This document shows positions 9,505-45,546 of a stretch of 64,000 nucleotides of DNA, one piece after another. A program made the translations under genes and the position numbers. The stretch's first letter is position 1; the number at the start of each line of letters is the position of its first letter. Source of the DNA: Alphaproteobacteria bacterium (GTDB taxonomy: Bacteria; Pseudomonadota; Alphaproteobacteria; Micropepsales; Micropepsaceae); NCBI GenBank assembly GCA_025924715.1, contig JAICHV010000012.1:1-64000 (forward strand), in the 5' to 3' direction. The notes under the pieces are model-generated. The model worked only from the letters and a program-made list of their open reading frames with translations. It did not search any database and had not been told where the DNA came from.

Positions 9505-9654
9505 AGGCGCCATCATGCGCAAGAACCCTCTTCCCCTGGCCGCAGGGTCCAAACCACGCTAGGTACGAAATCGCACCACCAAGCGGGTATGGCACCTTCC
9601 GGCTGGAGCGGGTGTTTACCTTGAAAGCGCGCCTGGGGTGTGTGGAGGGAGTTC

Positions 9655-11484
9655 TTGCTGATTTCGGCGCGTATAACGTCTGTGGTTCTGATTTGCATGG
9701 CGGCGGGCGCCGCCTGGGCGGCGGATCCCCAACCCTACAATGTGGAACTCATCGGCGCCGAGCTCGGTGACACCCGCCCGGTCCTGCGGGCTAGTTCCGA
9801 ACTGATCTCCTTGCGCGACACCGCCCCGGTGGCGCCGTTCGGCCTGATCGAACGGGCGCGGGCCGATATCCCGCGTCTGCAAGAGGTTCTGGACAGCTTT
9901 GGCTATTATCAGAACCAGGTGGCGGTTCAGATCAACGGGCTGGTGCCTGCCGATCCCGGGCTGCCGCCGCTGCTGGACAAGCTTGGTCCGGGCCAAAAGG
10001 CGCAGGTCGAAATTCATATCGACAAGGGGCCGCTCTATCACCTCGGAACCATTGTGGTGAAGGGCGATTTGCCGGCCAAGGACCGCGCCGCGCTGAAGCT
10101 GGATAGCGGCGCGCCGGCGGTGGCGAGCGATGTTCTCGCAGCCCAAGCGCGGCTTCTGGCGGCGCTGCAAGAGGACAGCTATGCCATGGCCAGCGTTGGC
10201 GGCCCCGATGCCGTGGCCGACGACAATGCGCATCAGGTGGATGTCACCTTCACGGTGGTGACGGGTCCCAAGGCGAGTATCGGCGCGATCTCGCTCGAAG
10301 GGCTGCAGCAGATGGATGCGGATGTCGCCCGCAGCGCCCTGCGCCTGGCACCGGGCGATCCATACAAGCCCAGCACGATCGATGCAGCGCGCCGCCACCT
10401 GCTGGACCTGGGCGTGTTTTCCGGCGTAACCGTCCTGCCGGCCAAGACGGTGGGCGCGCAAGACACGGTGCCGCTGGTCTTCCAAGTCCAGGAAAGGCCA
10501 CGCCACGCGGTGACCCTGGGGGCGCGCTATTCCACCGATTTGGGCATTGCGCTGTCGGCGAGCTGGTCCGACCGCAACCTCCTCGGCGGTGCGGAACAGC
10601 TCAATCTGCGCGCCGAAGGCACCGGCCTTGGCAGCGCCAGTGCCGGGCTCGGCTATCATCTCTCCGTCCAATTCATCAAACCTGTCTTCCCCAGCCCCGA
10701 TCAATCCCTGGAAACCAATCTGGACGCGGTGAAGGAGAGCTTGGCGGCCTATGATCAGACCGCGCAAACCGCAGGCGTCGTTCTGCGCCAGAGATTTTCG
10801 CCGCTCTGGAGCGGCAGCGCCGGGCTTAGCGTGCTCCATGATATGGTGACCCAGGAAGGCAGCACCCGCCTTTACGAGATTCTGGCCCTGCCGGTGACGG
10901 CCCAATATGACAGCACCGGCCTTGAAGATCCGCTTGCCGAGCCCCGGCACGGCGCGCGGCTTTCGCTGGCGGCCACCCCGACGCAATCTTTTGGCGCTTC
11001 ATCCTTGAGCTTCCTGGTGCTGCAATCCTCAGGCACGACCTATTTCGATCTCAGCGGTGACGGAGGTTCGGTTGTCGCTTTGCGGGCGCTGGCGGGCACC
11101 ATTTTCGGCGGCAGCACCTTTGATCTCGCGCCCGATCAACGCCTTTATGCCGGCGGCAGCGCGACCGTGCGCGGTTATGCCTATCAATCCCTCGGGCCGC
11201 AATTTTCCGATCGCAAACCCACCGGCGCGAAATCGGTGGACGCGGCCACGATCGAATTGCGCCAGCGGTTGTTCGGCGATTGGGGTGCGGCGGCTTTTGT
11301 CGATGCCGGTCAGGCCACGGCGCGCGGCGCGCCCTTTAGCGGCGCCGTGCGGGTCGGTGCGGGCGTCGGCGCGCGCTATTATACCTCCATCGGCGTGATC
11401 CGCGGGGATATTGCCGTTCCCTTGAACCGCATGCCGGGGGGCGATGCGTTTGAAATCTATATCGGGCTGGGGCAGGCATTCTGA
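9655..11484 (+). CDS. tamA: translocation and assembly module protein TamA (Omp85 family)
   Basis: The ~609-residue protein has a signal peptide (hydrophobic run ending AAGAAWA). POTRA-type repeats follow (two clear ones around residues 100-260, e.g. ASIGAISLEGLQQMDADV). The C-terminal Omp85 beta-barrel carries GGSATVRGYAYQSLGP, the RGY motif of the barrel lumen, and ends in GLGQAF with a terminal Phe. The TTG start at 9655 follows GGAGGGAG; an alternative GTG at 9640 has a poorly placed ribosome binding site. TamA with TamB supports outer membrane protein assembly and lipid transport to the outer membrane. Its stop and the tamB ATG overlap (TGATG). Confidence 0.93.
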   Translation: MLISARITSVVLICMAAGAAWAADPQPYNVELIGAELGDTRPVLRASSELISLRDTAPVAPFGLIERARADIPRLQEVLDSFGYYQNQVAVQINGLVPADPGLPPLLDKLGPGQKAQVEIHIDKGPLYHLGTIVVKGDLPAKDRAALKLDSGAPAVASDVLAAQARLLAALQEDSYAMASVGGPDAVADDNAHQVDVTFTVVTGPKASIGAISLEGLQQMDADVARSALRLAPGDPYKPSTIDAARRHLLDLGVFSGVTVLPAKTVGAQDTVPLVFQVQERPRHAVTLGARYSTDLGIALSASWSDRNLLGGAEQLNLRAEGTGLGSASAGLGYHLSVQFIKPVFPSPDQSLETNLDAVKESLAAYDQTAQTAGVVLRQRFSPLWSGSAGLSVLHDMVTQEGSTRLYEILALPVTAQYDSTGLEDPLAEPRHGARLSLAATPTQSFGASSLSFLVLQSSGTTYFDLSGDGGSVVALRALAGTIFGGSTFDLAPDQRLYAGGSATVRGYAYQSLGPQFSDRKPTGAKSVDAATIELRQRLFGDWGAAAFVDAGQATARGAPFSGAVRVGAGVGARYYTSIGVIRGDIAVPLNRMPGGDAFEIYIGLGQAF

Positions 11485-28830: not shown

Positions 28831-29211
28831 TTACGGGGCCGGCGCCATGCCCAGGCAGTGTTGGATCTTGCCCATCAGGCGGGGCATATCCACCGGCTTG
28901 GTGTCGTAATCCGCGCAGCCCAGCCGGACGCTGATATCGCGGTCAGTGGCCATGGCATGGGCGGTCAGGGCGATGATCGGGATCCCGGCGGTCTTGGGAT
29001 TGCTTTTGATCAGGCGGGTCGCTTCCCACCCATCCATTTCGCCCAGGGCGATATCCATCAGGATCAGATCGGGCATTTCGCTCTCCGCCATCGCCACGCC
29101 TTGCGGGCCATCGACGGCGAAGCACATGGCGAAACCCTGGCGCTGCAGCCGGCGGCCGAGCATGTCGCGGTTCATTTCATTGTCTTCAACCAGCAGAATT
29201 TTTTTCATCAT
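28831..29211 (-). CDS. single-domain response regulator (CheY/DivK-like)
   Basis: The 126-residue receiver starts at 29211 after AAGGGGCCC; a second ATG follows directly. The phosphorylation pocket is complete: acidic pair in LLVEDNEMN, phospho-Asp in LILMDIALGEMDG, switch Thr in IALTAHAM, and Lys in YDTKPVD. There is no output domain, so it acts by protein contacts, like DivK. It is the last gene of a minus-strand run of signalling genes and starts 13 nt after the stop of the kinase at 29225, so the two are probably co-translated. Confidence 0.92.
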   Translation of the reverse strand: MMKKILLVEDNEMNRDMLGRRLQRQGFAMCFAVDGPQGVAMAESEMPDLILMDIALGEMDGWEATRLIKSNPKTAGIPIIALTAHAMATDRDISVRLGCADYDTKPVDMPRLMGKIQHCLGMAPAP

Positions 29212-29224
29212 GGGCCCCTTGATC

Positions 29225-30349
29225 TCACGAGCTAAGCATGGCGCCGTCCCGAAGGGGGAACAGGCGTGGAAGATATTTGCGCAGCGCCAGCGCCATGCGG
29301 CTGCCGGCGGCGCGGCTGGTGCCACTCAGCGGCCCGTCGCTTTGCGCGAACTGCGATGACAAAGCGGGGCCTGCGAAATTCGAAGGAAGGCGCATGGAGA
29401 GGCGCAGATCCTGGTCGGCTTCGCCCGCGATCCAGAATTCGCCGCCCATCAGCCGGCACAATTTTTCCGCCAGGGCCACGCCCAGACTGCTGTCATGGGT
29501 GCTGTCCAACCCGGCCGATCCGGCACGAAAATCGCTGACGATATGGGCCGCATGCGCGGGAATGGCGGTGCCGTCCAGGGCCCTGACCGTGATCTCGATG
29601 GCGCCGCCGCGCACGGCACCGGCCAGCCGGACCTCGCCGTCGCGCACCAGATGGGAGGACGCCCCAACCAATTTTGCCACGACTTGCTGAAACTTCCGCT
29701 TGTCGATGACGATGGTTTGATCTTCGCCCAGCAGCGCGCAGGTGAAGCGGTTGGCGTTTTCCGCCGCCAGGGCTGTGCAAGCCGCGGTGATTTGGTCGAT
29801 TAACGCACCAAGACTGGCTTGCTCCGGAAAGATCTCCATCTTGCGGGCGTCGATCTTGGAGTGATCCAACACGTCGTTGATCAGGCTCAGAAGGTGCTTG
29901 CCGGTTTGCAGGATCTTGCCGATATCGGCGCTCTCCCGGCCGGCGGCGACCATGTCCTCGATCAGCATTTCGCTATAGCCGATGACCGCGTTGATCGGCG
30001 TGCGCAATTCGTGGCTCATCTTGGCCAGATAGTCCGCCTTGGCTTCGATGGCCTTGATCGCCTTGACCTTGCGTTCGCGCAGTTCGCGCGCCGTGGCGAC
30101 ATGGGCGAGAACTTCATCCTCCAGCCGCCGGCGCAAGGCGGGCAGATTGGCGACATAGGCCGCCGCGATCGACACCGCCAGGGCGCCGCATAGGCCGAAG
30201 ACAAGACCCGTGCTGGGCACCACCGGAAAATTCACATGGCTGAGGAAAAACGAGCCGCGCACCAGGAAATAGATCGCGGCAAAGCCAGCCCCCAGCCAAG
30301 CCGGGGCGAGAAGGGCGCGCAAAATCCCGATCGATTGTTTCGCAGCCAT
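29225..30349 (-). CDS. membrane histidine kinase with degenerate ATP-binding domain
   Basis: The 374-residue protein (start 30349, MAAKQSIGIL) has two transmembrane segments in its first 70 residues, a short coiled coil, and a canonical HisKA box [19 protein letters not shown] with His113. The catalytic domain is eroded. Where an N box such as NLLSNAIKF is expected it reads KLVGASSHLV. The DxGxG box is replaced by ALDGTAIPAHAA. The G2 box GTGLGL becomes SSLGVAL. It should therefore be able to accept a phosphate but hardly bind ATP. Its neighbour at 30472 has the opposite defect. A heterodimer role, or a phosphatase/scaffold role, is inferred. The frame extends upstream to 30475, but the transmembrane start favours 30349. 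Confidence 0.85.
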   Translation of the reverse strand: MAAKQSIGILRALLAPAWLGAGFAAIYFLVRGSFFLSHVNFPVVPSTGLVFGLCGALAVSIAAAYVANLPALRRRLEDEVLAHVATARELRERKVKAIKAIEAKADYLAKMSHELRTPINAVIGYSEMLIEDMVAAGRESADIGKILQTGKHLLSLINDVLDHSKIDARKMEIFPEQASLGALIDQITAACTALAAENANRFTCALLGEDQTIVIDKRKFQQVVAKLVGASSHLVRDGEVRLAGAVRGGAIEITVRALDGTAIPAHAAHIVSDFRAGSAGLDSTHDSSLGVALAEKLCRLMGGEFWIAGEADQDLRLSMRLPSNFAGPALSSQFAQSDGPLSGTSRAAGSRMALALRKYLPRLFPLRDGAMLSS

Positions 30350-30471
30350 AAACAGATTTCTCGCCAGTCCTTCCGAACGGTGCGATTTTATCGCTCCGCG
30401 CGTTAAAAGATGGTTGGTGCCGGAACTTGGGGCGGTGTTTGGCCGGGTTTGGTTAATGAATTGAGGGCCGA

Positions 30472-31881
30472 TCAAGCGGCGGCGACCCTGGCGTTTTCCA
30501 TCAGCTTATTGGCGCGGTCGTCGGTGATGTCGGCTGGTAAACGAACGGTAAACCGCGAGCCCTTGCCCTGCTCGCTGGCGACCGTGATCGTCCCGCCCAT
30601 GGCCTGGCAAAAGTCGCGGCAGATATTCAAGCCCAGGCCGGTACCGCCATAGGTGCCGGAGGTCGAGGCCTCCGCCTGGTGGAAATTGCCGAACATTTTC
30701 CCCAGCGCGTCGCTGGCGATGCCGATGCCGGTGTCGCTCACCTCGATTTTGACCCAATCGATGCGGCCGTCATTTTCGCGCACTACCGACAGCCCGATTT
30801 TCCCCCGGCTGGTGAACTTGCCGGCATTGCTGAGCAGGTTCAGCACAATCTGGCGCAGGCGCATCTGGTCGGAAATCATCAGCCCGGCGCCATGGGGAAT
30901 TTCCACCGCCAGTTCATTGCCATTGGCGACGACCAAGTGCCGGGCCGTCGCCACGATATTGTCGAAGAACCGGGTCAGTTCGAACGTATCCACCGACAAT
31001 TCGGTTTTCGAGGCTTCGATCTTGGAGATGTCCATCACATCCGTCATCAGGCTCAGCAGGTGTTTGCTGGCCAGATTGATGCGGCTCATATCGGCGATCT
31101 GCTGCTGGTCATAGCCTTGCTGGGCATCTTCCAGCGCCATCTCGCTATAGCCGATGACCGCGTTCAGCGGTGTGCGCAGGCGGTGGGTCATGTTGACCAG
31201 GAAAAGCGATTTGCGGCTGTTGGCCTCCTCGGCGGCGTCCGTGGCCCGCCGCATGCGGGCAATCCGGCCACGCTGGCGGGCGGCTTCGCGGCTCACGTCC
31301 TCCAGGGCCGTGGCGGCACCGGTGCAGTACAGGGCCAGCAAGGCGATGAACGCCGCGGCGGCGAACAGGCAGACCACCCCCATATTCGACAACATCTCGG
31401 GGCTTGGCGCCTGCCGGATCGGTGCGGTGAGGCGGCCCAAAACGGCAAATAACGCGAGGGTGCCGATCGCGGCAGCGCCCAGCCGCCGCGGCCGGTGCCG
31501 CAGGCAAAATGCGCCCGCCGCCACCGCCAGGACCAGCCAAGGCAGAAAGGGAGAATTCAGCCCGCCATAGCAAAGCGTCGCCACGATTCCCACCAGAACG
31601 GCGTTGGCGAGTATGGGCAGGGTGAGCCGTTCCAGGCGGGCGCCCCGTTTGAGCGCCACAAGCAGCAGCCAAAAACCATGCACGCTGCTTGCGACAATCC
31701 AGAGCGGGGCGCGGTTCAAGGGAAGCGCGATGGCGATATACAGCAGCGCGGCATCGGCCAAGAGCGGCCCGGACAGCAGGCCGAAAGCCAGCATGCGGGT
31801 TTTCCAATGCGTCGCGGCGTCGGACGTGCCTCTGTCCGGGACCAGCCAGTCGAGGCCGCGATGGAGAGCTTTGCTGATCAT
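30472..31881 (-). CDS. six-TM sensor histidine kinase with altered H box
   Basis: The 469-residue kinase starts at 31881 (MISKALHRGLDWLVP); a TTG five codons upstream is less likely. Six transmembrane segments fill residues ~30-190, with the loop motif YGGLNSPFLPW shared with the kinases at 34834 and 36370. The phospho-acceptor box reads MTHRLRTPLNAVIGYSEM: the acidic residue after the histidine, which is almost invariant and acts as base in catalysis, is Arg. The ATPase domain is intact (LLNLLSNAGKF, DTGIGI, GGTGLGLNI). The ligand is unknown. This kinase probably has weak autophosphorylation but could phosphorylate a partner's histidine. Confidence 0.9.
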   Translation of the reverse strand: MISKALHRGLDWLVPDRGTSDAATHWKTRMLAFGLLSGPLLADAALLYIAIALPLNRAPLWIVASSVHGFWLLLVALKRGARLERLTLPILANAVLVGIVATLCYGGLNSPFLPWLVLAVAAGAFCLRHRPRRLGAAAIGTLALFAVLGRLTAPIRQAPSPEMLSNMGVVCLFAAAAFIALLALYCTGAATALEDVSREAARQRGRIARMRRATDAAEEANSRKSLFLVNMTHRLRTPLNAVIGYSEMALEDAQQGYDQQQIADMSRINLASKHLLSLMTDVMDISKIEASKTELSVDTFELTRFFDNIVATARHLVVANGNELAVEIPHGAGLMISDQMRLRQIVLNLLSNAGKFTSRGKIGLSVVRENDGRIDWVKIEVSDTGIGIASDALGKMFGNFHQAEASTSGTYGGTGLGLNICRDFCQAMGGTITVASEQGKGSRFTVRLPADITDDRANKLMENARVAAA

Positions 31882-32042: not shown

Positions 32043-32567
32043 TCAATCCCGCCTAACCCTGGGCGGCTGGTAGAAAATCGTGTCCTGGGAAAGCCGTCGC
32101 TCGGTGCCCGCGAAATCCCGGCTTCCCGCGCGGCGCCGGTCCGGCCCGACAAAGCTCTTGCCCGTGACAAAGCTGCGGGTGTTCAGCAAAATACGTCCGA
32201 ACCGCTTTTGCACGCTTTCCGGGCTCATCGGCGGACACATGATGTCGTCGGCTCCCGCATCCCGAAGCATCTGAATGTCCTTGAGGGTCACCGCCGAGTG
32301 CACCACCACCAGGGGAATCGTGGGATCGCGCCCGAACACGTCGCGGCGCACCGCCAGGGTGAATTCCACCGGGTTCATTGCCTCGGCTTCGTTGGTGCAC
32401 AGAACCAGCTCGAAGCCCTGCTCGCGCAGCAGCGTCAGGGCTTCATCGGTGCGCGACACGCGGGTAAAGGCGGGGGCCCCCAAGCTGGACAGCAAGCATC
32501 GCAAGAACTCGTGGGAGTTCGGTTTCCAGCCGACGATGAGTACGCGAGCTTCTTTCAGACTGCGCAT
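32043..32567 (-). CDS. pseudo-receiver protein with GPDRRR tail
   Basis: The 174-residue protein has the CheY fold pattern in residues 8-130 but has lost the phosphorylation site. The acidic pair is Gly13-Trp14 (VLIVGWKPN). The phospho-Asp position is Thr58 (LVLCTNEAEAMNP). The Lys is Cys111 (IMCPPM). It cannot be phosphorylated in the normal way. The tail (131-174) carries FVGPDRRR at 139-146, nearly identical to YVGPDRRR in the intact regulator at 45058. Other strands and the ALD/AGADD segment (LRDAGADDI) are well kept, so it is under selection rather than random decay. A phosphorylation-independent adaptor or decoy receiver is inferred. Confidence 0.82.
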   Translation of the reverse strand: MRSLKEARVLIVGWKPNSHEFLRCLLSSLGAPAFTRVSRTDEALTLLREQGFELVLCTNEAEAMNPVEFTLAVRRDVFGRDPTIPLVVVHSAVTLKDIQMLRDAGADDIMCPPMSPESVQKRFGRILLNTRSFVTGKSFVGPDRRRAGSRDFAGTERRLSQDTIFYQPPRVRRD

Positions 32568-32620: not shown

Positions 32621-33772
32621 TCATTGCGATGCCGCCAAAGCCAGGGGCTGACGCCTGGAAAGGCGAACCGTCACCGCGGTGCCGCGCCCCGGCTCGCTGA
32701 TGAGATCGAAGCTGCCGCCCTGCATTTCCACCAGCCGTTTGGTCAGCGGCAAGCCCAGGCCCGTGCCCTCATATTTGCGCGCCAATCCGCTATCGACCTG
32801 GCCGAAAGGCGTCATCGCCAGGCCGATCTTGTCCTTGGGAATCCCGATTCCGGTGTCGACGATCTTGAACTCCACGAAGCCGTCCTCGGCCGCGATGGCA
32901 AAGAGCTGAACCTTTCCGCCCGGTTCGGTGAATTTGATGGCATTGCCCAGAAGATTGAGCAGAATCTGCTGCAGGCGGACGGCATCGCCGCGGAAAGGCG
33001 GCAGGGGAGCCGGCGTGTGGACCTCGAACGTGACGTCGGCCTTGGCCGCGATTTCGCGCATCAGCGCGCTGGAGAAGGCGATGATTTGCGCCAGATCGAC
33101 GTCTTCCTCGCGCAGGGTCAGGCTGTTGGATTCGGCCTTGGACAGATCGAGGATGTCGTTGATCACATGCAGTAGATGGCTGCCGCTGTCGCGGATGATC
33201 TTGGCATATTCGGAGTATCGAGGCGCTAAGGGCCCATACAACCGGTCGGCCATGACGGTGGAAAAGCCGATGATGGCGTTCAGCGGCGTACGCAGCTCAT
33301 GGCTCATATTGGCGAAGAACTGGCTTTTGGCGCGATTGGCGGCCTCTGCGCCTTCCTTGGCGACGGCGAGGACCTCATGGCTGCGCCGCAATTCCTCGGC
33401 CGCCTGGAATGAGCGCAGCATATAGCGCACCCGATGTTTGAGCACGCCCCAGGTGAGCGGTTTGCAGATAAAATCCGTGGCGCCCGCGCTATAGGCTTTT
33501 TCGATCGAGACAAGATCGTCCAGCCCGGTCGCCTGCAAGATCGGCACGAATTGACTGGAAGGGTTGGCGCGCAAGGCCTGGCAAAGCGCGAAGCCGTCCA
33601 TGCGCGGCATCAGCACATCGGTGACAATCAGATCGGGAACCTGACGGCTGCAGATCTCGCAAGCCTCGACGCCGTCCACCGCTTCCAGCACCGTGAAACC
33701 ATCGCCTTCCAGCTCGGCGCGCATCAACATGCGCACGATGTCGTCGTCGTCGACGATCAGGATGGTGGCCAT
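32621..33772 (-). CDS. receiver-histidine kinase hybrid (REC-HisKA-HATPase)
   Basis: The 383-residue soluble protein has an N-terminal receiver (Asp52 in [11 protein letters not shown], Lys104 in FICKPLT). A short helix leads to HisKA (His158 in [15 protein letters not shown]), then a complete HATPase ([27 protein letters not shown]). With no membrane segment and the receiver first, its kinase activity is probably controlled by phosphorylation. The same order is found in PhcR of the Ralstonia phc quorum-sensing system. Its ATG follows directly after the TGA of the REC-Hpt gene (no spacer), so translation is coupled. Confidence 0.93.
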
Positions 33773-34624
33773 TCAGGTCTCTCCCGCCCGCTTGCCGAGC
33801 TCTTCGACCAGAATGTTCAAATGTTTGATGGTGTCGGCCAGATCGGCCTCCAGCGCCTTCAGCATGGGCTCCACGCCCCCCAAGCCGTTCTCGCGCGCCT
33901 CTTTTTCCAGCGCGGCGCAGCGCGCGGCCAGATCACGGGCGCCTACCGCGCCGGCGCCGGATTTGAAATTATGGGCAGTACGCCAAAGCGCGTCCGGCAG
34001 ACCGGCCCGATAATTCTCCCACAGGGTGGCCATATGGCGCGCCGCCAGGCCGGCAAAACGGTCATAGAGCCGCTGCAGAAAGGGGAACCCTGCCTTGCCT
34101 TGCGACTCGAGCACTGCGTTCATCGTCGCGCGGTCGATCACCGCATTGTCGCTTGGGGGCGCCGGCGGCGCGGCCACGGTGCCGCTGTCGGGCGCACTGG
34201 GCCCGGCGCTTTGCAGATCGCCGATCCAGCGATGCAGGGTATCGCGCAGTTTGGCCTTGCTGAACGGTTTTGCGATCAGATCGTCCATGCCGGCGGCAAG
34301 ACATTGCTGACGCACGTCGTCCAGCGCATGCGAGGTGAGGGCCACGATCGGAATGCGCCTGTATGGTGCCCCCTGGCTTTGCGCCGCTTCGAAATTGCGC
34401 GCCAGTTTTGTGGCCTCCAGACCGCCCATCTCCGGCATTTCGCAGTCCATGAAGACCAGATCGAATTTTTCCCGGGCGAGAAGACTGGCGGCGACCGCGC
34501 CGTTTGGCGCGCCCACCACGCTGCAGCCCATGGTCTCAAGAATACGGGTGGCGATATCCAGATTGACCGGATTGTCCTCTGCGACCAGAAGCCGGGCACG
34601 GAAATGGGATGTGCTCTGCGGCAT
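33773..34624 (-). CDS. receiver-Hpt phosphotransfer protein
   Basis: The 283-residue protein starts at 34624 after GGGAGAGGG. Residues ~8-138 form a complete receiver (AEDNPVN, phospho-Asp60 in FMDCEMPEMGG, IAKPFSK). A Pro/Ala/Ser linker follows (140-160). Residues ~165-283 are an Hpt domain with phospho-accepting His218 in RTAHNFKSGAGAVGA. Such proteins relay phosphate from hybrid kinases to response regulators. With the REC-kinase directly downstream and translationally coupled, the pair can form the middle of a multi-step phosphorelay for the surrounding kinases. Confidence 0.93.
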   Translation of the reverse strand: MPQSTSHFRARLLVAEDNPVNLDIATRILETMGCSVVGAPNGAVAASLLAREKFDLVFMDCEMPEMGGLEATKLARNFEAAQSQGAPYRRIPIVALTSHALDDVRQQCLAAGMDDLIAKPFSKAKLRDTLHRWIGDLQSAGPSAPDSGTVAAPPAPPSDNAVIDRATMNAVLESQGKAGFPFLQRLYDRFAGLAARHMATLWENYRAGLPDALWRTAHNFKSGAGAVGARDLAARCAALEKEARENGLGGVEPMLKALEADLADTIKHLNILVEELGKRAGET

Positions 34625-34833
34625 CACCCTCTCCCGAGGCGGTTGCGGCGCGCTGCCCCGCTCGCCGCGAAAATCCGCAACGTCACAAGACACGCCTTCG
34701 GCGTCAATGCGCATGCAGGCATCGCAAGCATCGGTAATTGCCCAATTCCGTGGGCAATTATGCCATGTCGGGAATTAACACTTCGTCAGTAAGCAGCGCG
34801 GGACGGCCTGTGCTCAGGCCTCGCCCGACGGCC

Positions 34834-36240
34834 TCACGCGGCCTTGGGTGGGCGCTGCAGCGCCGGCGAGGTTTGGGAGACAGGATTCACATAAGGGACG
34901 TCGATGGTGAAGGTGGAACCTTCGCCAACCTGCGAATCGACCGAGATGCTGCCGCCCATCAAGGCGCAGAATCGCTGGGTGAGGGCCAAGCCCAGGCCGG
35001 TGCCGCCGAACTTCTGCGTCGTATCGGCTTCGGCTTGGCTGAAGCTTTGGAAAATGCGGCTGAGGCTTTCCTTGCTCATGCCGATGCCGGTGTCGTTGAC
35101 CTCGATGACCAACCGGTCCGCGCCATTGGCGGTTTTTTTGGAGACCCTCAGCCGGATCGTGCCATGGGTGGTGAATTTGGCGGCATTGCTGAGGAGGTTC
35201 AGGATGCATTGGCGCAATTTCAGCGGATCGGTCTCGATGGTGCCCAGGTCGCTGGGCATCTGGATGATCAACTGGTTGTGCTTTTTGGCGATCAGAGGAC
35301 CTGCCGTCGCCGCCACGTCCCGGATGATCTGGGAAACTTCGACCTTTTGCAAAGCCGCATCCTGCTTGTCGGATTCGATGCTGGTCAGATCCAGCACGCC
35401 CGTTACCAGATCCAGCAAATGCCGCCCGGCGGCATTGATCCGGTCCAGGTCCGCGGCGCGTTCATTGCTTGCCGAACCGGCCGCCAACTCGTCCCGCAGC
35501 ATCTCGCTATAGCCGATAACGGCATTCAGCGGGGTGCGCAGTTCGTGGCTCATTTTGGCCAGGAAGATCGATTTTTGGCGGCTGCTCAATTCCGCCTGCC
35601 GCATCGCCTCGGCCAGTGCCTCCATTTGGGCGCGGTGTTCGCGCGTTGCCTTTTCCAGGACACCGCTATCGCGCATCACGGTCTCATAATACAGCGACAA
35701 CAGGGTGGTGTAGGTGATGGCCGCGAGGATCGAAATCAAGTTGACATAGGTGAGGCTTTCCATCGACAGCAGCCTGGGGAAATCCCCATGCACAAGGCGG
35801 GCGACCACAAACACGACCAGCTGGATCGAAACGCCCACCAGAACCATCACCGCATGCTCCGCGAGGTAGAAAAAGCCCAGCAGAAGCGCAATCAGGAACC
35901 ATGGCAGAAAGGGTGAAGAGATGCCGCCGTAAAAGAACGAGCCGAACAGACTGAGGAAAACCAGGGACTGCACCGAGATCATCGCCGGCTGGGTGAGGTT
36001 GCGCAGAAGCTTAACGAGCAGCGGAACCGCCCAGAAAAAGGCGACGCTGATCTCGATGACCCAGAACTGCCAGGTGATGTCGCCGGACGCGCTCCACAGG
36101 AACAGAACGACGGAATGGCCCATGGCGGGGCCCAGAAGATGCAACAGGACGAAAGTGCGGACCTTCATGAGGTTCGCCTGGTCCCGCGTCAAATTCTCCG
36201 GAATGAAATAGTCTATTGCTTTCATGGCCAGTTGACGCAT
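34834..36240 (-). CDS. six-TM sensor histidine kinase (canonical)
   Basis: The 468-residue kinase has the ATG at 36240 after GGGAGGG. Residues 8-15 read KAIDYFIP, and six transmembrane segments follow (about 28-185). The loop motif FYGGISSPFLPW is at about 103-114. HisKA has His232 ([19 protein letters not shown]). The HATPase is complete (LLNLLSNAAKF, DTGIGM, FGGTGLGLAL). The sensor domain is shared with 30472 and 36370: DYFIP, then RTFVLLHLLGP, then YGG-x2-SPFLPW. The membrane-embedded sensor suggests a hydrophobic ligand, as for CqsS, LqsS or PhcS. It is divergent from the kinase at 36370 with 129 nt between them, which must contain both promoters. Confidence 0.94.
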   Translation of the reverse strand: MRQLAMKAIDYFIPENLTRDQANLMKVRTFVLLHLLGPAMGHSVVLFLWSASGDITWQFWVIEISVAFFWAVPLLVKLLRNLTQPAMISVQSLVFLSLFGSFFYGGISSPFLPWFLIALLLGFFYLAEHAVMVLVGVSIQLVVFVVARLVHGDFPRLLSMESLTYVNLISILAAITYTTLLSLYYETVMRDSGVLEKATREHRAQMEALAEAMRQAELSSRQKSIFLAKMSHELRTPLNAVIGYSEMLRDELAAGSASNERAADLDRINAAGRHLLDLVTGVLDLTSIESDKQDAALQKVEVSQIIRDVAATAGPLIAKKHNQLIIQMPSDLGTIETDPLKLRQCILNLLSNAAKFTTHGTIRLRVSKKTANGADRLVIEVNDTGIGMSKESLSRIFQSFSQAEADTTQKFGGTGLGLALTQRFCALMGGSISVDSQVGEGSTFTIDVPYVNPVSQTSPALQRPPKAA

Positions 36241-36369: not shown

Positions 36370-37800
36370 ATGCACGCCGACGCCATGACTCATGAGCCGG
36401 AACAAGGCGTCGTTTCGAAGCGCAAATTCGACCTGAATGCGCTGCTGGATTATTTCATTCCGGTCGATATTCAAGTTCAGCCCGACGCCCACCGCCGCGC
36501 CCGCATGTTCATGCTCAGCCATGCGTTCGGGCCATTTCTGGGCAACGTCATCCCGCTTTATCTGCATTTCATCCTGAAGATCGAAATGGACTACAGGTTT
36601 TGGACATTTTTCGTGTCCATCACCATTTTCTGGCTTTATCCGGTGGTGTTGCGGCTGACCAAGCAATATCAGCTGCTGGCATTCCTATCGATCCAGAACC
36701 TGGCCTTCTGCATCCTGTGGTCCTGTTATTCCTATGGCGGCGTCTATTCGCCGTTCCTGTCCTGGACCCTGATCATACCGCTGCTGTCGTTTTTCTACCT
36801 GCCGGCGACCGGGCTGATCCGCAATGTCATTCTTGCCCAGATCCTGCTTAGTGTTGGCATCTTCGCCGGCCTGGTCGTCAGCGGCTATGCTTTTCCCGCG
36901 GTGGATCTGCGGGATTTCGAATTTATCGGCATCATATCGACCCTCAGCGCGTCGTGTTATGTGGTGATGATGGCGCTTTACTTCGCCAATGTCTTCCGCG
37001 AGCAGCGCACCTTCGAACGCGAATTGGGCGGGTTGGTGGCGACCGCCGACCACATGATCAACCTGACCGCCGCGGCGCAGCAGGCCTCGATGGCCAAGGC
37101 GGATTTCGTCGCTTCGATGAGCCACGAACTGCGTACGCCTCTCAATGCCGTGATCGGTTACAGCCAGATATTGCTGGAAGATGCAGACGAAAAAGGCGAT
37201 GAGGCTTTCGGCGCCGACGTCAAGCGCATCCATGACGCAGGCGCGCATTTGCTGCGTCTGATCGACGACATTCTGGATTTTTCCAAGCTCGAGGCCGGGC
37301 GGATGGTACTGCATCCCAGCACGGGCTCGCTGCAGGAATGCGTGGCGGAAATTTCCACCGAATTGGCCCAAAGCGCTGTCGGCGAGGCCTATTCGATCGA
37401 CTGCCGGCTGGGCAAAGCCGGCGACCCGCTTGAACTGGACTGGCACACGATCAAAAAGGCGGTTCAGCACCTGGTTTATGGTGTCGCCACCGAGGGCGGG
37501 CGGGGCGTCATCCGCATCCACGCCGTGGTGAACGACCAAAACATCGCCATCCAGCTCACCGACCCGAAAATCCGGGATTCCAAGGCGAGCGCGGAGCGGT
37601 TGTTCGACGTATTTTCCGACGACTCCGACTCCTCCGCCACCAAATATGGTGGTGTCGGTATTGCCTTTGCCCTCAGCCTCAAATTTGCGCAACTGCTCGG
37701 CGGCGACATCGCCGTCGACTCCGATTATCAAGGCCGGCGCAATTTCGTGATGACGATACCCGTCGCCAAAAACGTCTGTGCCGATCTGGCCGCTGCTTAG
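36370..37800 (+). CDS. six-TM sensor histidine kinase with degenerate ATP-binding domain
   Basis: The 476-residue protein (start 36370; an alternative ATG at 36385) has the same sensor layout as its divergent neighbour: LLDYFIP at 25-31, RARMFMLSHAFGP, six transmembrane segments and SYGGVYSPFLSW. HisKA is intact with His252 ([19 protein letters not shown]). The catalytic domain has lost the key boxes: the N box is VQHLVYGVATEGG (no Asn), and the DxGxG region is LTDPKIRDSKAS. Only a G2-like YGGVGIAFAL remains. It probably cannot bind ATP normally and so needs another kinase to phosphorylate it, or works as a phosphatase or ligand-binding partner. It is transcribed towards the synthase gene 128 nt downstream. 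Confidence 0.88.
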   Translation: MHADAMTHEPEQGVVSKRKFDLNALLDYFIPVDIQVQPDAHRRARMFMLSHAFGPFLGNVIPLYLHFILKIEMDYRFWTFFVSITIFWLYPVVLRLTKQYQLLAFLSIQNLAFCILWSCYSYGGVYSPFLSWTLIIPLLSFFYLPATGLIRNVILAQILLSVGIFAGLVVSGYAFPAVDLRDFEFIGIISTLSASCYVVMMALYFANVFREQRTFERELGGLVATADHMINLTAAAQQASMAKADFVASMSHELRTPLNAVIGYSQILLEDADEKGDEAFGADVKRIHDAGAHLLRLIDDILDFSKLEAGRMVLHPSTGSLQECVAEISTELAQSAVGEAYSIDCRLGKAGDPLELDWHTIKKAVQHLVYGVATEGGRGVIRIHAVVNDQNIAIQLTDPKIRDSKASAERLFDVFSDDSDSSATKYGGVGIAFALSLKFAQLLGGDIAVDSDYQGRRNFVMTIPVAKNVCADLAAA

Positions 37801-37928: not shown

Positions 37929-39368
37929 ATGGGTAATGAGAACGAGCTGGACGGCGCGTTGGCCGGCAGCATGAAGGACTACCGGACCATTCCGGGCAAC
38001 GATCTTCTCGCGCGCGTCGATGCATTTTACGACTGGCAGCAATTGCGCCGCAGGGCCGGGCTTTGGCCGCTCGGCCGTTCGACCGAGACCGGTCCGCATA
38101 GCCGCTGCCAGGCGCGCACCGACGAGGGCGGCCTGTTTGAAGGCGTCAATTTCGCCTCGCAGGATTATCTCAGCCTTTCGCATCATCCCGCCGTTCTCGA
38201 GGTCGCGGTCCAGACCATGAAGGACTTCGGCGTCCACAGCGCGGGCTCGCCCGCGCTGGTCGGCAACACGTCTTTGTCCCTGGCGCTGGAAAAGAAGATC
38301 GCCACGTTCCTGCAAATGGACCATGTGGCGCTGTTTCCGACCGGCTGGGCCGCGGGTTTCGGCGTCATCAAGGGCCTGGTGCGTCCGGGCGACCATATCG
38401 TCATGGACACGCTGTCCCACGCCTGTCTGCAGGAAGGGGCCCAGGCCGCGACCAAGAACATCCATTATTTCCGTCACAACAGCCTGGAGATGGCGCGCGA
38501 AAAGCTGGCCGCGATCCGCGCCCAGGATACCGAAAACGGCATTTTGGTGATCACCGAAAGCCTGTTTTCCATGGATTCCGACACGCCGGACATCAAGGCG
38601 CTGCAGGACCTGGCCCATGAATACAAGGCCGTCCTGGTGGTCGACGTCGCCCATGATCTGGGAAATCTGGGCGAAGACGGACGCGGTCATATCGGCATGC
38701 AAAACATGATCGGCAAAGTCGATCTGGTCATGGGAAGCTTCTCCAAGACCTTCGCCTCCAATGGCGGCTTCGTCGCCAGCGGCAAGCGCGCGGTACGCGA
38801 ATATTTGCGCTACTATGCCTCTCCCAACACCTTCTCCAATGCCATGTCGCCGGCCGCGGCGGCGATTATCGGCAAATGCTTTGACATCGTGCAGTCGCAG
38901 GAGGGCGCCCGCCTTCGCCGCAAGCTGATGAGCAACATCGTGGCGCTGCGCGAGCTACTGCATAGCTGCAATTTCGAGACCTTCGGCGATCCTTCCGCCA
39001 TTGTCTGCGTCAAGATGGGCCAGGAGAGCCTCGCCCGTTTGGTGAGCCGCCGCCTGCCGGCCAATGGCTTGCTGGCCAATCTGGTGGAATTCCCGGCGGT
39101 GCCCAAGGGACGGGCGCGTTTCCGCCTTCAGGTGATGGCGAACCACACCACCCATGACATCATCGAGGCCGTCCACCGGCTGACCGCGGCGACCGCCACG
39201 GCGCAGGAAGAGGACGAAGCCTTGCGGGCGGGCACCATCACCCTGGCGGAGCTCAAAGCGGCGCCGCTGATGGTGAGTGCGCCCCGCACCGCGCCTGCCA
39301 GCCTGCGCACCCCGGCAGCCGGTCCTGATAACAAGGCCATTGCGGGAAAGATAAAGAAGATAGCCTGA
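37929..39368 (+). CDS. PLP-dependent alpha-oxoamine synthase (CqsA/LqsA/SPT superfamily)
   Basis: The 479-residue fold-type I enzyme condenses an amino acid with an acyl-CoA or acyl-ACP. The core covers about 73-400: NFASQDYLSLSHHP, HSAGSPALVGNT, TESLFSMDSD, a DVAH motif at 239-242 in place of the usual DEAH, and the PLP lysine Lys273 in GSFSKTFASNGGF. N- and C-terminal extensions of about 70 and 80 residues are unusual; the family norm is about 390-420. Relatives are BioF, Kbl, HemA and serine palmitoyltransferase. The autoinducer synthases CqsA and LqsA also belong here. No biotin, heme, threonine or sphingolipid gene is nearby, but six histidine kinases are, so I favour a signal synthase. 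Serine palmitoyltransferase-like activity is the main alternative. Confidence 0.85.
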   Translation: MGNENELDGALAGSMKDYRTIPGNDLLARVDAFYDWQQLRRRAGLWPLGRSTETGPHSRCQARTDEGGLFEGVNFASQDYLSLSHHPAVLEVAVQTMKDFGVHSAGSPALVGNTSLSLALEKKIATFLQMDHVALFPTGWAAGFGVIKGLVRPGDHIVMDTLSHACLQEGAQAATKNIHYFRHNSLEMAREKLAAIRAQDTENGILVITESLFSMDSDTPDIKALQDLAHEYKAVLVVDVAHDLGNLGEDGRGHIGMQNMIGKVDLVMGSFSKTFASNGGFVASGKRAVREYLRYYASPNTFSNAMSPAAAAIIGKCFDIVQSQEGARLRRKLMSNIVALRELLHSCNFETFGDPSAIVCVKMGQESLARLVSRRLPANGLLANLVEFPAVPKGRARFRLQVMANHTTHDIIEAVHRLTAATATAQEEDEALRAGTITLAELKAAPLMVSAPRTAPASLRTPAAGPDNKAIAGKIKKIA

Positions 39369-43536: not shown

Positions 43537-45015
43537 ATGAACCCTGTTCCGAAGGCCGCCTTCGAATTTCGTGAAGACCCCGCCGCTCTCAAACGCGCGG
43601 CGATGCCTCAGCCTGTGGATGAGCAAAGCTTCGAGCTGCAAGGCCTGTGGCTGAAATTCGTCGATCCCGCCGTGGAGGAAACCTTCACCCGGGAGACCTT
43701 CGTGCGATCCCTGGTCTTCATTCGCGCCTATCTTCTGGCCGGCACCGGGCTTTATATCGCTTTCGGTTTTCTGGATGCGCTGGTCGGCGGCAGCGCCACG
43801 CATATCTTGATGGCGATCCGCTACGGCGTCGTCTGCCCGATCCTGCTGGCGATATTCGGCCTGACCTATTTCCCGATCTTCCAGCGGTTCGGGCAACCGG
43901 TGCTATGTGCCGCAATGCTGGCCTCGGGCATGGGCGTGGTGGCGATGACCGCGATCATGCCGGCGCCCTATAACAGCCAATATTATGCCGGCATCATCAT
44001 GGTGGTGATGTATTGCGGCAGCCTGATCCGCCTCAAATACCGATATAGCGTGATGATCTCGGTATTCCTAGTTGCCAGCTACCAGGTCACCGCCATTCTG
44101 CTCGATCCCATCCCGGAAAGCGCCCTGGTCAGCAACGACTTCTTTCTGGTCATGGCGAACCTGGTCGCCCTGTTCTCCGGCTATATCCAGGAACTCTATA
44201 TCCGCCGCACCTATGCCAGCCGCAAGATCATCGAGCTGAAGAACGATTTCACCTCCATCCTGCTGCGCGAGGCCAACCAGGCGAACCGGGCCAAGAGCGA
44301 ATTTCTGGGCAATATGGGGCATGAACTGCGCACCCCGCTCAACGCCATTATCGGTTTTTCCGATATCATCCGTCATGGTCTCAAAGGTCCGCTCAACAAC
44401 AGCTTCTATGAAGAATATATCGTCGATATCAACAATAGCGGCATGAAGCTTCTGGCGATCGTCAATGACGTACTCGATTATACGAGAGCCGAATCCGGCA
44501 AGCTCGATCTGGCACGCGATATTTTCGACCTCGGCGACCTCTTCAACGACTGCGTCGAAAACTACCGCAGCATGGCCGAGCAGAAAGGCGCCACCATCGC
44601 CCTGTCCCAATCCCATCCGGTGACCATCGTCGCGGACCGAAGGCTATTCTCGCAGGTGATTCTCAAATTGCTGTCGAACGCGGTCAAATTCTCCCGTTCC
44701 AAGGGCGAGGTGCGGATTTCCTATTGCGACCACGGCGCGAGCGGTCTGACGATCGAAATCGCCGATGACGGCATCGGCATCGACGCCAAGGATATCGACA
44801 GGGTGCTTAATCCCTTTGAGCAGGTGGAAAGCGCTTATGCGCGGAGCAATGGCGGCGCCGGTCTGGGTCTGTCCTTCGCCAAAAAGCTCACGGAATTGCA
44901 TGACGGTTCGCTCAGTCTGGCGAGCGCGCTGGGGCAGGGCACCTGCATCACCTTGCGACTGCCGGCTTCGCGCGTCGTGCGGGACGCGGCCGCGCCGGTG
45001 GCCGCCGCGGGCTGA
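43537..45015 (+). CDS. six-TM sensor histidine kinase (PhcS-like architecture)
   Basis: The 492-residue kinase has a ~50-residue cytosolic N-terminus (LQGLWLKFVDPAVEETFTRE), six transmembrane segments (about 57-222), and HisKA with His262 ([19 protein letters not shown]). The HATPase is intact (LLSNAVKFS, DDGIGI, GGAGLGLSF). Its sensor part lacks the YGG-x2-SPFLPW loop, so it is a different sensor type from the other three six-TM kinases. The upstream methyltransferase and downstream response regulator suggest a synthase-kinase-regulator set like phcB-phcS-phcR. Ligand unknown. Confidence 0.93.
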   Translation: MNPVPKAAFEFREDPAALKRAAMPQPVDEQSFELQGLWLKFVDPAVEETFTRETFVRSLVFIRAYLLAGTGLYIAFGFLDALVGGSATHILMAIRYGVVCPILLAIFGLTYFPIFQRFGQPVLCAAMLASGMGVVAMTAIMPAPYNSQYYAGIIMVVMYCGSLIRLKYRYSVMISVFLVASYQVTAILLDPIPESALVSNDFFLVMANLVALFSGYIQELYIRRTYASRKIIELKNDFTSILLREANQANRAKSEFLGNMGHELRTPLNAIIGFSDIIRHGLKGPLNNSFYEEYIVDINNSGMKLLAIVNDVLDYTRAESGKLDLARDIFDLGDLFNDCVENYRSMAEQKGATIALSQSHPVTIVADRRLFSQVILKLLSNAVKFSRSKGEVRISYCDHGASGLTIEIADDGIGIDAKDIDRVLNPFEQVESAYARSNGGAGLGLSFAKKLTELHDGSLSLASALGQGTCITLRLPASRVVRDAAAPVAAAG

Positions 45016-45057
45016 CCACGTGATCACGAGTTTTTTCATTCAAAGGCAAACTGACCT

Positions 45058-45546
45058 ATGGCGGATCCGGCCTATCACAATTTGCGTGTCCTGATTGTCG
45101 ACGACAACGCGACCATGCGTGACCTGCTGCGGCGCCTGCTCGCCTCCCTGGGCGTGCGCGATATCGTGCAAGCGGCGGACGGTAATGGCGGCCTGGAATC
45201 GCTGCGCTTAAGCAAATTCGACGTCATCCTGTCGGATCTGGAGATGGCGCCGATGGACGGGATCGAATTCACCCGCCAAGTGCGCACGTCGCCCACCAGT
45301 CCCAATCCCTATGTTCCGATCGTCATGATCACGGGTCATACTGAAATGAACCGCGTTCACGCCGCTCGCGACGCCGGCATCAACGAATTCGTGGTCAAAC
45401 CGATCACGCTGAAAAATCTCTCCGCGCGACTGATCGAAATCGTCGAGCGGCCGCGTCCCTTTGTGCGCTCGGGCGATTATGTCGGCCCCGACCGGCGCCG
45501 CAAAAAGCGCGCCGGACCCGGGCCGACCAGGCGCAAGGACGACTAG
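45058..45546 (+). CDS. response regulator, receiver domain with GPDRRR tail
   Basis: The 162-residue protein has a complete receiver: acidic pair Asp15-Asp16, phospho-Asp60 in ILSDLEMAPMDG, Thr in MITGHTE, and Lys114 in VVKPIT. The tail of about 30 residues is basic and contains YVGPDRRR (141-148), matching the pseudo-receiver at 32043. No DNA-binding domain is present, so it signals by protein contacts or through its tail. It lies 42 nt after the kinase at 43537 and is very likely its partner. Confidence 0.92.
   Translation: MADPAYHNLRVLIVDDNATMRDLLRRLLASLGVRDIVQAADGNGGLESLRLSKFDVILSDLEMAPMDGIEFTRQVRTSPTSPNPYVPIVMITGHTEMNRVHAARDAGINEFVVKPITLKNLSARLIEIVERPRPFVRSGDYVGPDRRRKKRAGPGPTRRKDD

Follow-up and report, generated by a model that had tools for sequence, protein, structure and literature searches.

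A probable duplicated set of HisKA kinases with complementary defects beside a single-domain receiver in an alphaproteobacterial genome

Can a histidine kinase that has lost its ATP-binding boxes, and a neighbour that has lost the acidic residue beside its own histidine, still signal, and with which partner? This question is raised by two adjacent histidine kinase genes, HK1 and HK2, on contig JAICHV010000012.1 (GenBank assembly GCA_025924715.1) of an alphaproteobacterium of the family Micropepsaceae. The window, that is, the whole stretch of DNA analysed, comprised 64,000 nucleotides (positions 1 to 64,000 of the contig). HK1 lies next to RR1, a response regulator gene, and an earlier note on this DNA had proposed that HK1 and HK2 work as an obligate heterodimer. 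In the present study, we found two further relatives in the same gene cluster, HK3 and HK4. Duplication and modular reduction of the kinases around RR1 are well supported for HK2, HK3 and HK4 and likely for HK1, and as a mechanism such a set is plausible.

Defects of HK1 and HK2 and their two relatives

The motifs of HK1 were compared with those of intact kinases by alignment. It was observed that HK1 carried HELRTP at His113, so that the phospho-acceptor His and its acidic neighbour were both present, and the Pfam HisKA match scored 55.7 bits. The N box read KLVGASSHL, in which the Mg-binding Asn was gone; the G1 region read VRALDGTAIP, with one residue inserted and the Asp and one Gly missing; and the G2 box read SSLGVAL, with most of the box lost. 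The HATPase_c match barely passed the Pfam cut-off (26.5 bits against 26.4). By motif, HK1 has no usable set of ATP-binding N, G1 and G2 boxes and fails as a complete HisKA kinase. The earlier note had described the retained His113 and the three lost boxes, and both points were confirmed, with the loss of G2 being partial. The start of HK1 was taken as the ATG at 30349, the frame being open from a TTG at 30475, and the gene ended with a TGA stop at 29225-29227, 13 nt before the start of RR1. A single-chain structure model of HK1, built on six window sequences, retained the ATPase fold with a mean predicted local distance difference test score (pLDDT) of 68.7. Residues 201-320 scored 74-89 in blocks of ten, except for 261-290, and the model was poorly defined at both ends and at 261-285. 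The N-terminal stretch of HK1 aligned in the expected register with the last part of the membrane domain shared by the other three kinases at 8.3 bits without the coil, compared with 7.7 bits for the best unrelated kinase of its own genome and 5.4 bits for the best of 200 shuffles. That this stretch is a remnant of the shared domain is suggestive only.

HK2, which starts with the ATG at 31881, showed the converse pattern. All of its boxes were intact, including N (NLLSNAGKF), G1 (SDTGIGIA), F and G2 (GGTGLGL), and the HATPase_c and HisKA matches scored 102.8 and 43.7 bits. The residue after the phospho-acceptor His was not acidic, since the motif read THRLRTP with an Arg codon, CGC, at that position. 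The claim that HK2 combines a full ATPase domain with this Arg therefore stood. A sequencing error was considered as the source of the Arg codon and is unlikely, because CGC differs from a Glu codon at three bases. The Thr at His+4 was retained. HK1 and HK2 are same-strand neighbours, with 122 nt between them.

The earlier note had overlooked HK3, an intact sibling, and HK4, which repeats the type of defect seen in HK1. HK3 and HK4 are divergently transcribed, with 129 bp between the chosen starts. HK2 and HK3 were homologous over their full length, including the membrane domain (36% identity), and HK3 and HK4 shared 30% identity. HK4 kept HELRTP, and both HK1 and HK4 retained His-Glu and the Thr at His+4. 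The G+C content of HK4 was 0.576, below that of the neighbouring genes tested (0.586-0.646), with 0.746 at third positions. The coordinates are collected in Table 1.

Table 1. Coordinates of the kinases, their domains and the neighbouring genes in the window
Feature	Position	Strand	Description
RR1	28831..29211	-	single-domain receiver (response regulator); Pfam Response_reg 80 bits
HK1	29225..30349	-	374 aa; membrane stretch at the N-terminus, then a coil, a HisKA domain with His113-Glu and an ATPase domain that is degenerate
HK1 HATPase_c domain	29384..29704	-	N, G1 and G2 boxes degenerate; mean identity 26% to 8 outside kinases
HK1 HisKA/DHp domain	29846..30040	-	mean identity 67% to 8 outside kinases
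HK2	30472..31881	-	469 aa; ATPase domain intact; HisKA carries His233-Arg (THRLRTP); membrane domain present
HK2 codons CAC CGC	31180..31185	-	phospho-acceptor His, then Arg in place of Glu/Asp
HK3	34834..36240	-	468 aa; membrane domain of HK2, HELRTP, every ATPase box intact
HK4	36370..37800	+	476 aa from chosen ATG; shares this membrane domain; retains His252-Glu; lacks the N and G1 boxes, G2 altered
Pseudo-receiver protein	32043..32567	-	Response_reg 20.7 bits, under cut-off 30.2; catalytic residues replaced (by eye)
REC-HisKA-HATPase hybrid kinase	32621..33772	-	boxes intact; outside the HK1-HK4 group
REC-Hpt protein	33773..34714	-	Pfam; paralogue on contig C78, 42% identical
Aminotransferase	37929..39368	+	in 2 of 8 outside genomes (G423, G253), a homologue (54-56%) likewise lies close to the kinase-RR1 pair

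Selective loss of the ATPase domain, relatives and rarity

The four kinases were compared with eight intact RR1-linked kinases from other genomes, referred to here as outside kinases. The mean identity to these eight in the DHp and ATPase domains was 67% and 26% for HK1, 61% and 25% for HK4, 61% and 46% for HK2, and 64% and 44% for HK3. Among the 56 DHp columns that were invariant in the eight, 15 were changed in HK1, 15 in HK4, 14 in HK3 and 17 in HK2, whereas among the 82 invariant columns of the ATPase domain, the changes numbered 54, 57, 26 and 23, respectively. The pattern persisted when three more distant kinases were added, with 8 (HK1), 6 (HK4), 8 (HK3) and 7 (HK2) changes among 39 DHp columns and 29, 23, 5 and 5 among 42 ATPase columns. 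The DHp was thus kept in HK1 and HK4 while the ATPase domain diverged, indicating selective loss of the ATP engine rather than general decay. In addition, third-position GC was 0.75-0.81 in HK1-HK4 and 0.74-0.81 in the other window genes tested, and the four kinases aligned gap-free from the presumed last membrane helix to the His. Together with the fold of the HK1 model, these sequence comparisons argue against simple decay.

The outside kinases had been picked by their membrane domain. A profile of this domain (E 1e-8) matched the own genome alone among 69 genomes labelled as the same genus, and 10 of 385 genomes of the class, own included. Strong matches were present in eight outside genomes, four of which lie within the 385. 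Two of these four belong to an order of 15 genomes that contained no other strong match, and the other two belong to an order of nine genomes that yielded four more. In all eight, the membrane-domain kinase was intact, and an RR1 homologue (67-76% identical) lay directly downstream; in the present genome, HK1 occupies this slot upstream of RR1. The fetched neighbourhoods (14-19 kb) each held one kinase of this kind. The kinases L101 and L102, the two that were read by Pfam, carry a C-terminal receiver, and the RR1-linked kinase of G253 (L100:2105-4006) has an extra C-terminal stretch that is receiver-like by eye and misses the usual acidic residues. Membrane-domain matches of lower strength (E 1e-31 to 1e-35) also occurred in G423 and G253. 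Across the whole order of G423, such matches lay in kinases that were more distant and had intact boxes; the exception was L114, which is cut off before the ATPase domain.

Searches were then scored for HK1 and HK2 themselves, with the best 16-19 candidates per genome. The HK1 search (E 1e-30) matched 9 of 100 genomes and the HK2 search (E 1e-50) matched 7 of 100, own included. The outside matches, at 28-48% identity, were intact kinases aligned mainly over the DHp and ATPase domains, and no orthologue of HK1 or HK2 was recognised in the 99 other genomes. A GTDB scan for orthologues returned two distant kinases and no orthologue. The earlier note had looked to orthologues for persistence of both defects; with none recognised, the nearest comparison is the eight related kinases, all of them intact. 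Intact orthologues would, in the terms of that note, speak against its idea, but these kinases resemble relatives from before the duplication more than they do orthologues of HK1 and HK2.

In a tree of 33 rows, HK1-HK4 and four outside RR1-linked kinases formed one group (support 100/95). In a tree of 16 rows, HK1 grouped with outside kinases (87/94). A common engine loss in HK1 and HK4 before their split was neither rejected nor shown (approximately unbiased test, p-AU 0.351), and HK1 and HK2 as sisters were absent from the best tree and were not rejected (p-AU 0.138). The grouping of HK2 with HK3 had a support of just 43/58. The precise branch positions of HK1 and HK4 are less sure.

The rarity of the defects was evaluated in the own genome, which held 43 HisKA loci above the Pfam cut-off, with an alignable H box in all but 5 of the 43. 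The N-box Asn was absent in three loci, namely, HK1, HK4 and one on contig C3 (L073), which also lacks the His and has Glu at its position. Arg after the His was found in HK2 only (1 of 43), and the two defects thus go beyond what chance would give. A DivL-like kinase homologue on contig C44 (L054) has Tyr in place of the His (SYELRTP). At the DNA level, a pattern for H-R-x-R-T-P-x-N matched in 2 of the 385 class genomes, own included; one match was HK2, and the other was a site whose frame encodes no kinase. The reversed pattern, used as a control, likewise matched twice. Matches with H-E were not tallied, and the pattern accepted only CGN codons for Arg and required Asn two residues after Pro, so that it undercounts and the true frequency may be higher.

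Proposed mechanism and its alternatives

We propose that one membrane histidine kinase, which ancestrally drove RR1, expanded in this lineage to four kinases. HK3 would have kept everything, HK1 and HK4 would have kept the DHp and lost the ATP engine, and HK2 would have kept the engine and lost the acidic residue needed by its own His. The kinases would form mixed dimers, in which the ATP comes from HK3 and/or HK2 and the His-Glu of HK1 (and HK4) is phosphorylated by them in trans. HK1 would then hand the phosphate to RR1, the presumed shared target, or remove it. We put forward this lineage-specific expansion, with engine-less HK1 and HK4 fed in trans and feeding RR1, with slightly more doubt than belief. 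The proposal builds on the computed defects, the full-length homology of HK2, HK3 and HK4, the selective conservation of the DHp and the intact kinase upstream of RR1 elsewhere. HK1 and HK4 are judged unable to use ATP because of their lost boxes.

The expected behaviour of HK2 derives from published work on CrdS. According to the available portion of PMC3510030, replacement of the Glu after the His by Ala, Asp, Gln or Gly abolishes the kinase activity of CrdS and spares its phosphatase activity, Glu to Ala has the same effect in three other HisKA kinases, and phosphatase activity requires Thr or Asn at His+4. The substitutions reported in that portion do not mention Arg, the residue of HK2. 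Because such mutants were kinase-dead, HK2 alone would be expected not to phosphorylate itself, and because its Thr at His+4 is retained, it may dephosphorylate RR1.

A known split kinase offers a further comparison. As described in the excerpted text of PMC3591291, the incomplete proteins CheA3 and CheA4 of Rhodobacter sphaeroides work only when mixed. The likeness is that the acceptor His and ATP catalysis reside on two incomplete proteins and that the acceptor protein signals to a receiver. By motif, HK1 and HK4 would be separate acceptor proteins and HK2 an engine protein, and HK3 is complete. However, CheA has P1-P5 domains and serves chemotaxis, whereas the present kinases are duplicated HisKA/HATPase_c membrane kinases with an intact sibling, and the listed Pfam matches of HK1 and HK2 included no CheA domain (Hpt/P1 or CheW-like). 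The same excerpts state that no HATPase domain can be detected in 1.7% of HisKA proteins, which retain the phosphatase motif and might be split kinases, and that a model study linked split bifunctional kinases to switch-like responses (PMC3591291). By analogy with the CrdS work and with split kinases, a heterodimer prediction is reasonable. It is possible, though doubtful, that a split HisKA kinase evolved here by duplication, with complementary modules shed by three of the four sisters, in which RR1 is phosphorylated mainly by mixed dimers and the composition of these dimers sets the kinase or phosphatase output, with HK3 as the complete unit and the pseudo-receiver protein perhaps as a further non-catalytic subunit.

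HisKA kinases generally act as homodimers. If the proposal is true, the locus would exemplify, in nature, the conversion of HisKA kinases into a hetero-oligomeric device after duplication, with the evolutionary steps readable from the siblings, one of them intact, two engine-less and one without the residue beside the His. It also makes testable predictions, namely, whether phosphorylation occurs in cis or in trans, and whether the acidic residue after the His is needed only in the phosphate-accepting chain. No HisKA paralogue array of this kind was found among the titles and opening lines of abstracts listed, and the phrase "heterodimeric histidine kinase" returned none, in a coverage that leaves out most subscription journals.

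Several results weigh against this proposal. HK1 and HK4 were flagged as long branches with unsure placement, the tree of 16 rows, with other outgroups, gave no supported group of HK1-HK4 with the outside kinases, and a single origin of the four inside this genome was neither shown nor rejected (p-AU 0.179). The pairwise DHp identities (HK1-HK2 52%, HK1-HK3 51%, HK1-HK4 57%, HK2-HK3 49%, HK2-HK4 51%, HK3-HK4 49%) contained no signature that favours HK1 with HK2. The DHp loop bears on cis versus trans phosphorylation. The loop segment had 26 residues in all eight outside kinases, HK2 and HK4, 24 in HK1 and 27 in HK3, and the deviating lengths could insulate dimers or alter the cis/trans geometry; if this family autophosphorylates in cis, the scheme fails. 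No second genome with an expanded set was found, although selection of the eight outside genomes by the membrane domain would have missed an HK1-like copy lacking this domain elsewhere in them. The eight outside kinases came from two families, six of them from one genus and very alike, and two had identical cores, so that they are not eight independent witnesses. The assembly is fragmented, with an estimated contamination of 5.79% and two TamA copies. In the part of PMC9491836 consulted, a pseudokinase variant of ChrS gave no heterodimer in a two-hybrid test and its His was dispensable, although native ChrS and HrrS heterodimerised.

The alternative that survives best is that HK1 and HK4 are pseudokinase regulators, which would dock to, sequester or allosterically set HK3 without a phosphate on their His, in the manner of RetS or DivL, with HK2 as a dedicated phosphatase. 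RetS is a hybrid kinase with its own sensor module and C-terminal receiver domains. By sequence and fold, the nearest solved structures to HK1 included RetS, RetS with the DHp domain of GacS (the co-complex 7n0e) and HK853, and DivL (4q20) also matched. In RetS-GacS (7n0e, 6dk7, 6dk8, 7z8n), two HisKA kinases act on each other, and the kinase region of RetS is near HK1; the difference is that no Response_reg match was listed for HK1, which adjoins a separate receiver gene. DivL carries Tyr in place of the phospho-acceptor His, whereas HK1 and HK4 keep the His. The likeness to DivL-CckA of Caulobacter, mentioned in the available part of PMC9491836, is that an alphaproteobacterial kinase homologue serves as a non-catalytic partner. 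The same part describes ChrS and HrrS of Corynebacterium, paralogous kinases with one receiver, of which one has no working ATPase domain; there, however, the defect is a laboratory-evolved frameshift, and the dispensable His speaks for regulation by docking. The kinase-minus, phosphatase-plus outcome of defects of the HK2 type, where examined with other residues (in the portion of PMC3510030 cited above), fits the suggested role of HK2. Against this, HK1 and HK4 retain both His-Glu and the Thr at His+4, and their DHp has changed to the same extent as that of the intact HK3, none of which pure docking would require. We consider the regulator reading doubtful.

The obligate HK1:HK2 heterodimer of the earlier note, in which the ATPase domain of HK2 phosphorylates His113 of HK1 and neither works without the other, is improbable. 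Its basis was borne out, in that the defects are complementary, the genes are close neighbours on one strand with HK1 just before RR1, and the alignment from membrane to His is gap-free. The exclusive pairing, however, was not favoured. The intact HK3 could serve either partner, HK4 is a second engine-less partner that shares the membrane domain and loop length of HK2 (26 residues versus 24 in HK1), and DHp identity singles out no HK1-HK2 pair. To judge from the sequences, HK2 and HK4 complement each other at least as well as HK1 and HK2 do, because both carry the complete membrane domain and a loop of the common length, and the presence of HK3 may render both pairs unnecessary.

It is distinctly improbable that HK1 is a membrane-anchored histidine phosphotransferase, with the phosphate passing from a receiver (for example, that of the neighbouring hybrid or the REC-Hpt protein) through HK1 to RR1. 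ChpT and Spo0B pair a DHp-like His with a non-ATP-binding, ATPase-like domain, and HK1 similarly retains its His beside a dead ATPase domain in a gene cluster that holds both a REC-kinase hybrid and a REC-Hpt protein. However, the HisKA domain of HK1 is canonical and is accompanied by a membrane stretch, no match to the ChpT C-terminal family PF10090 was among those listed (E up to 1), the REC-Hpt protein already supplies a phosphotransfer His, and the tree groups HK1 with ordinary HisKA kinases.

Finally, pseudogene erosion or assembly error as the source of HK1, HK4 and the HK2 substitution is very unlikely, because, although this is a single assembly in 153 contigs with a second TamA copy on contig C71 and orthologues were not found in the genomes searched, the frames are open with ordinary third-position GC, the DHp of HK1 and HK4 has changed as little as that of HK3, and CGC lies three bases away from a Glu codon.

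The rest of the gene cluster and the window

The neighbouring genes listed in Table 1 hold further signalling proteins. In the pseudo-receiver protein, the acidic pair, the phospho-acceptor Asp and the Lys were replaced by GW, T and P, respectively, by eye, and the C-terminus carries GPDRRR and GTERR motifs. Contig C78 of the own genome (L036, 1-2867) encodes a REC-kinase that is 57% identical to the hybrid kinase of the window. Adjoining it is a longer protein, ended by the contig edge, with HATPase_c, two REC stretches and Hpt; its C-terminal part is the paralogue of the REC-Hpt protein, which looks like a shortened form of this longer protein.

Elsewhere in the window, a TamA-like gene (9640-11484, +) was 58% identical to another in the same bin (C71:5472-7271), and it had matches at 50-60% in just 17 of 59 genomes labelled as the same genus. 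This may reflect a mixed bin or a mixed genus label, and with two TamA copies in the bin, the exact host is unsure. At 43537-45546 (+), another intact kinase, followed by a receiver gene, lies outside the HK1-HK4 group.

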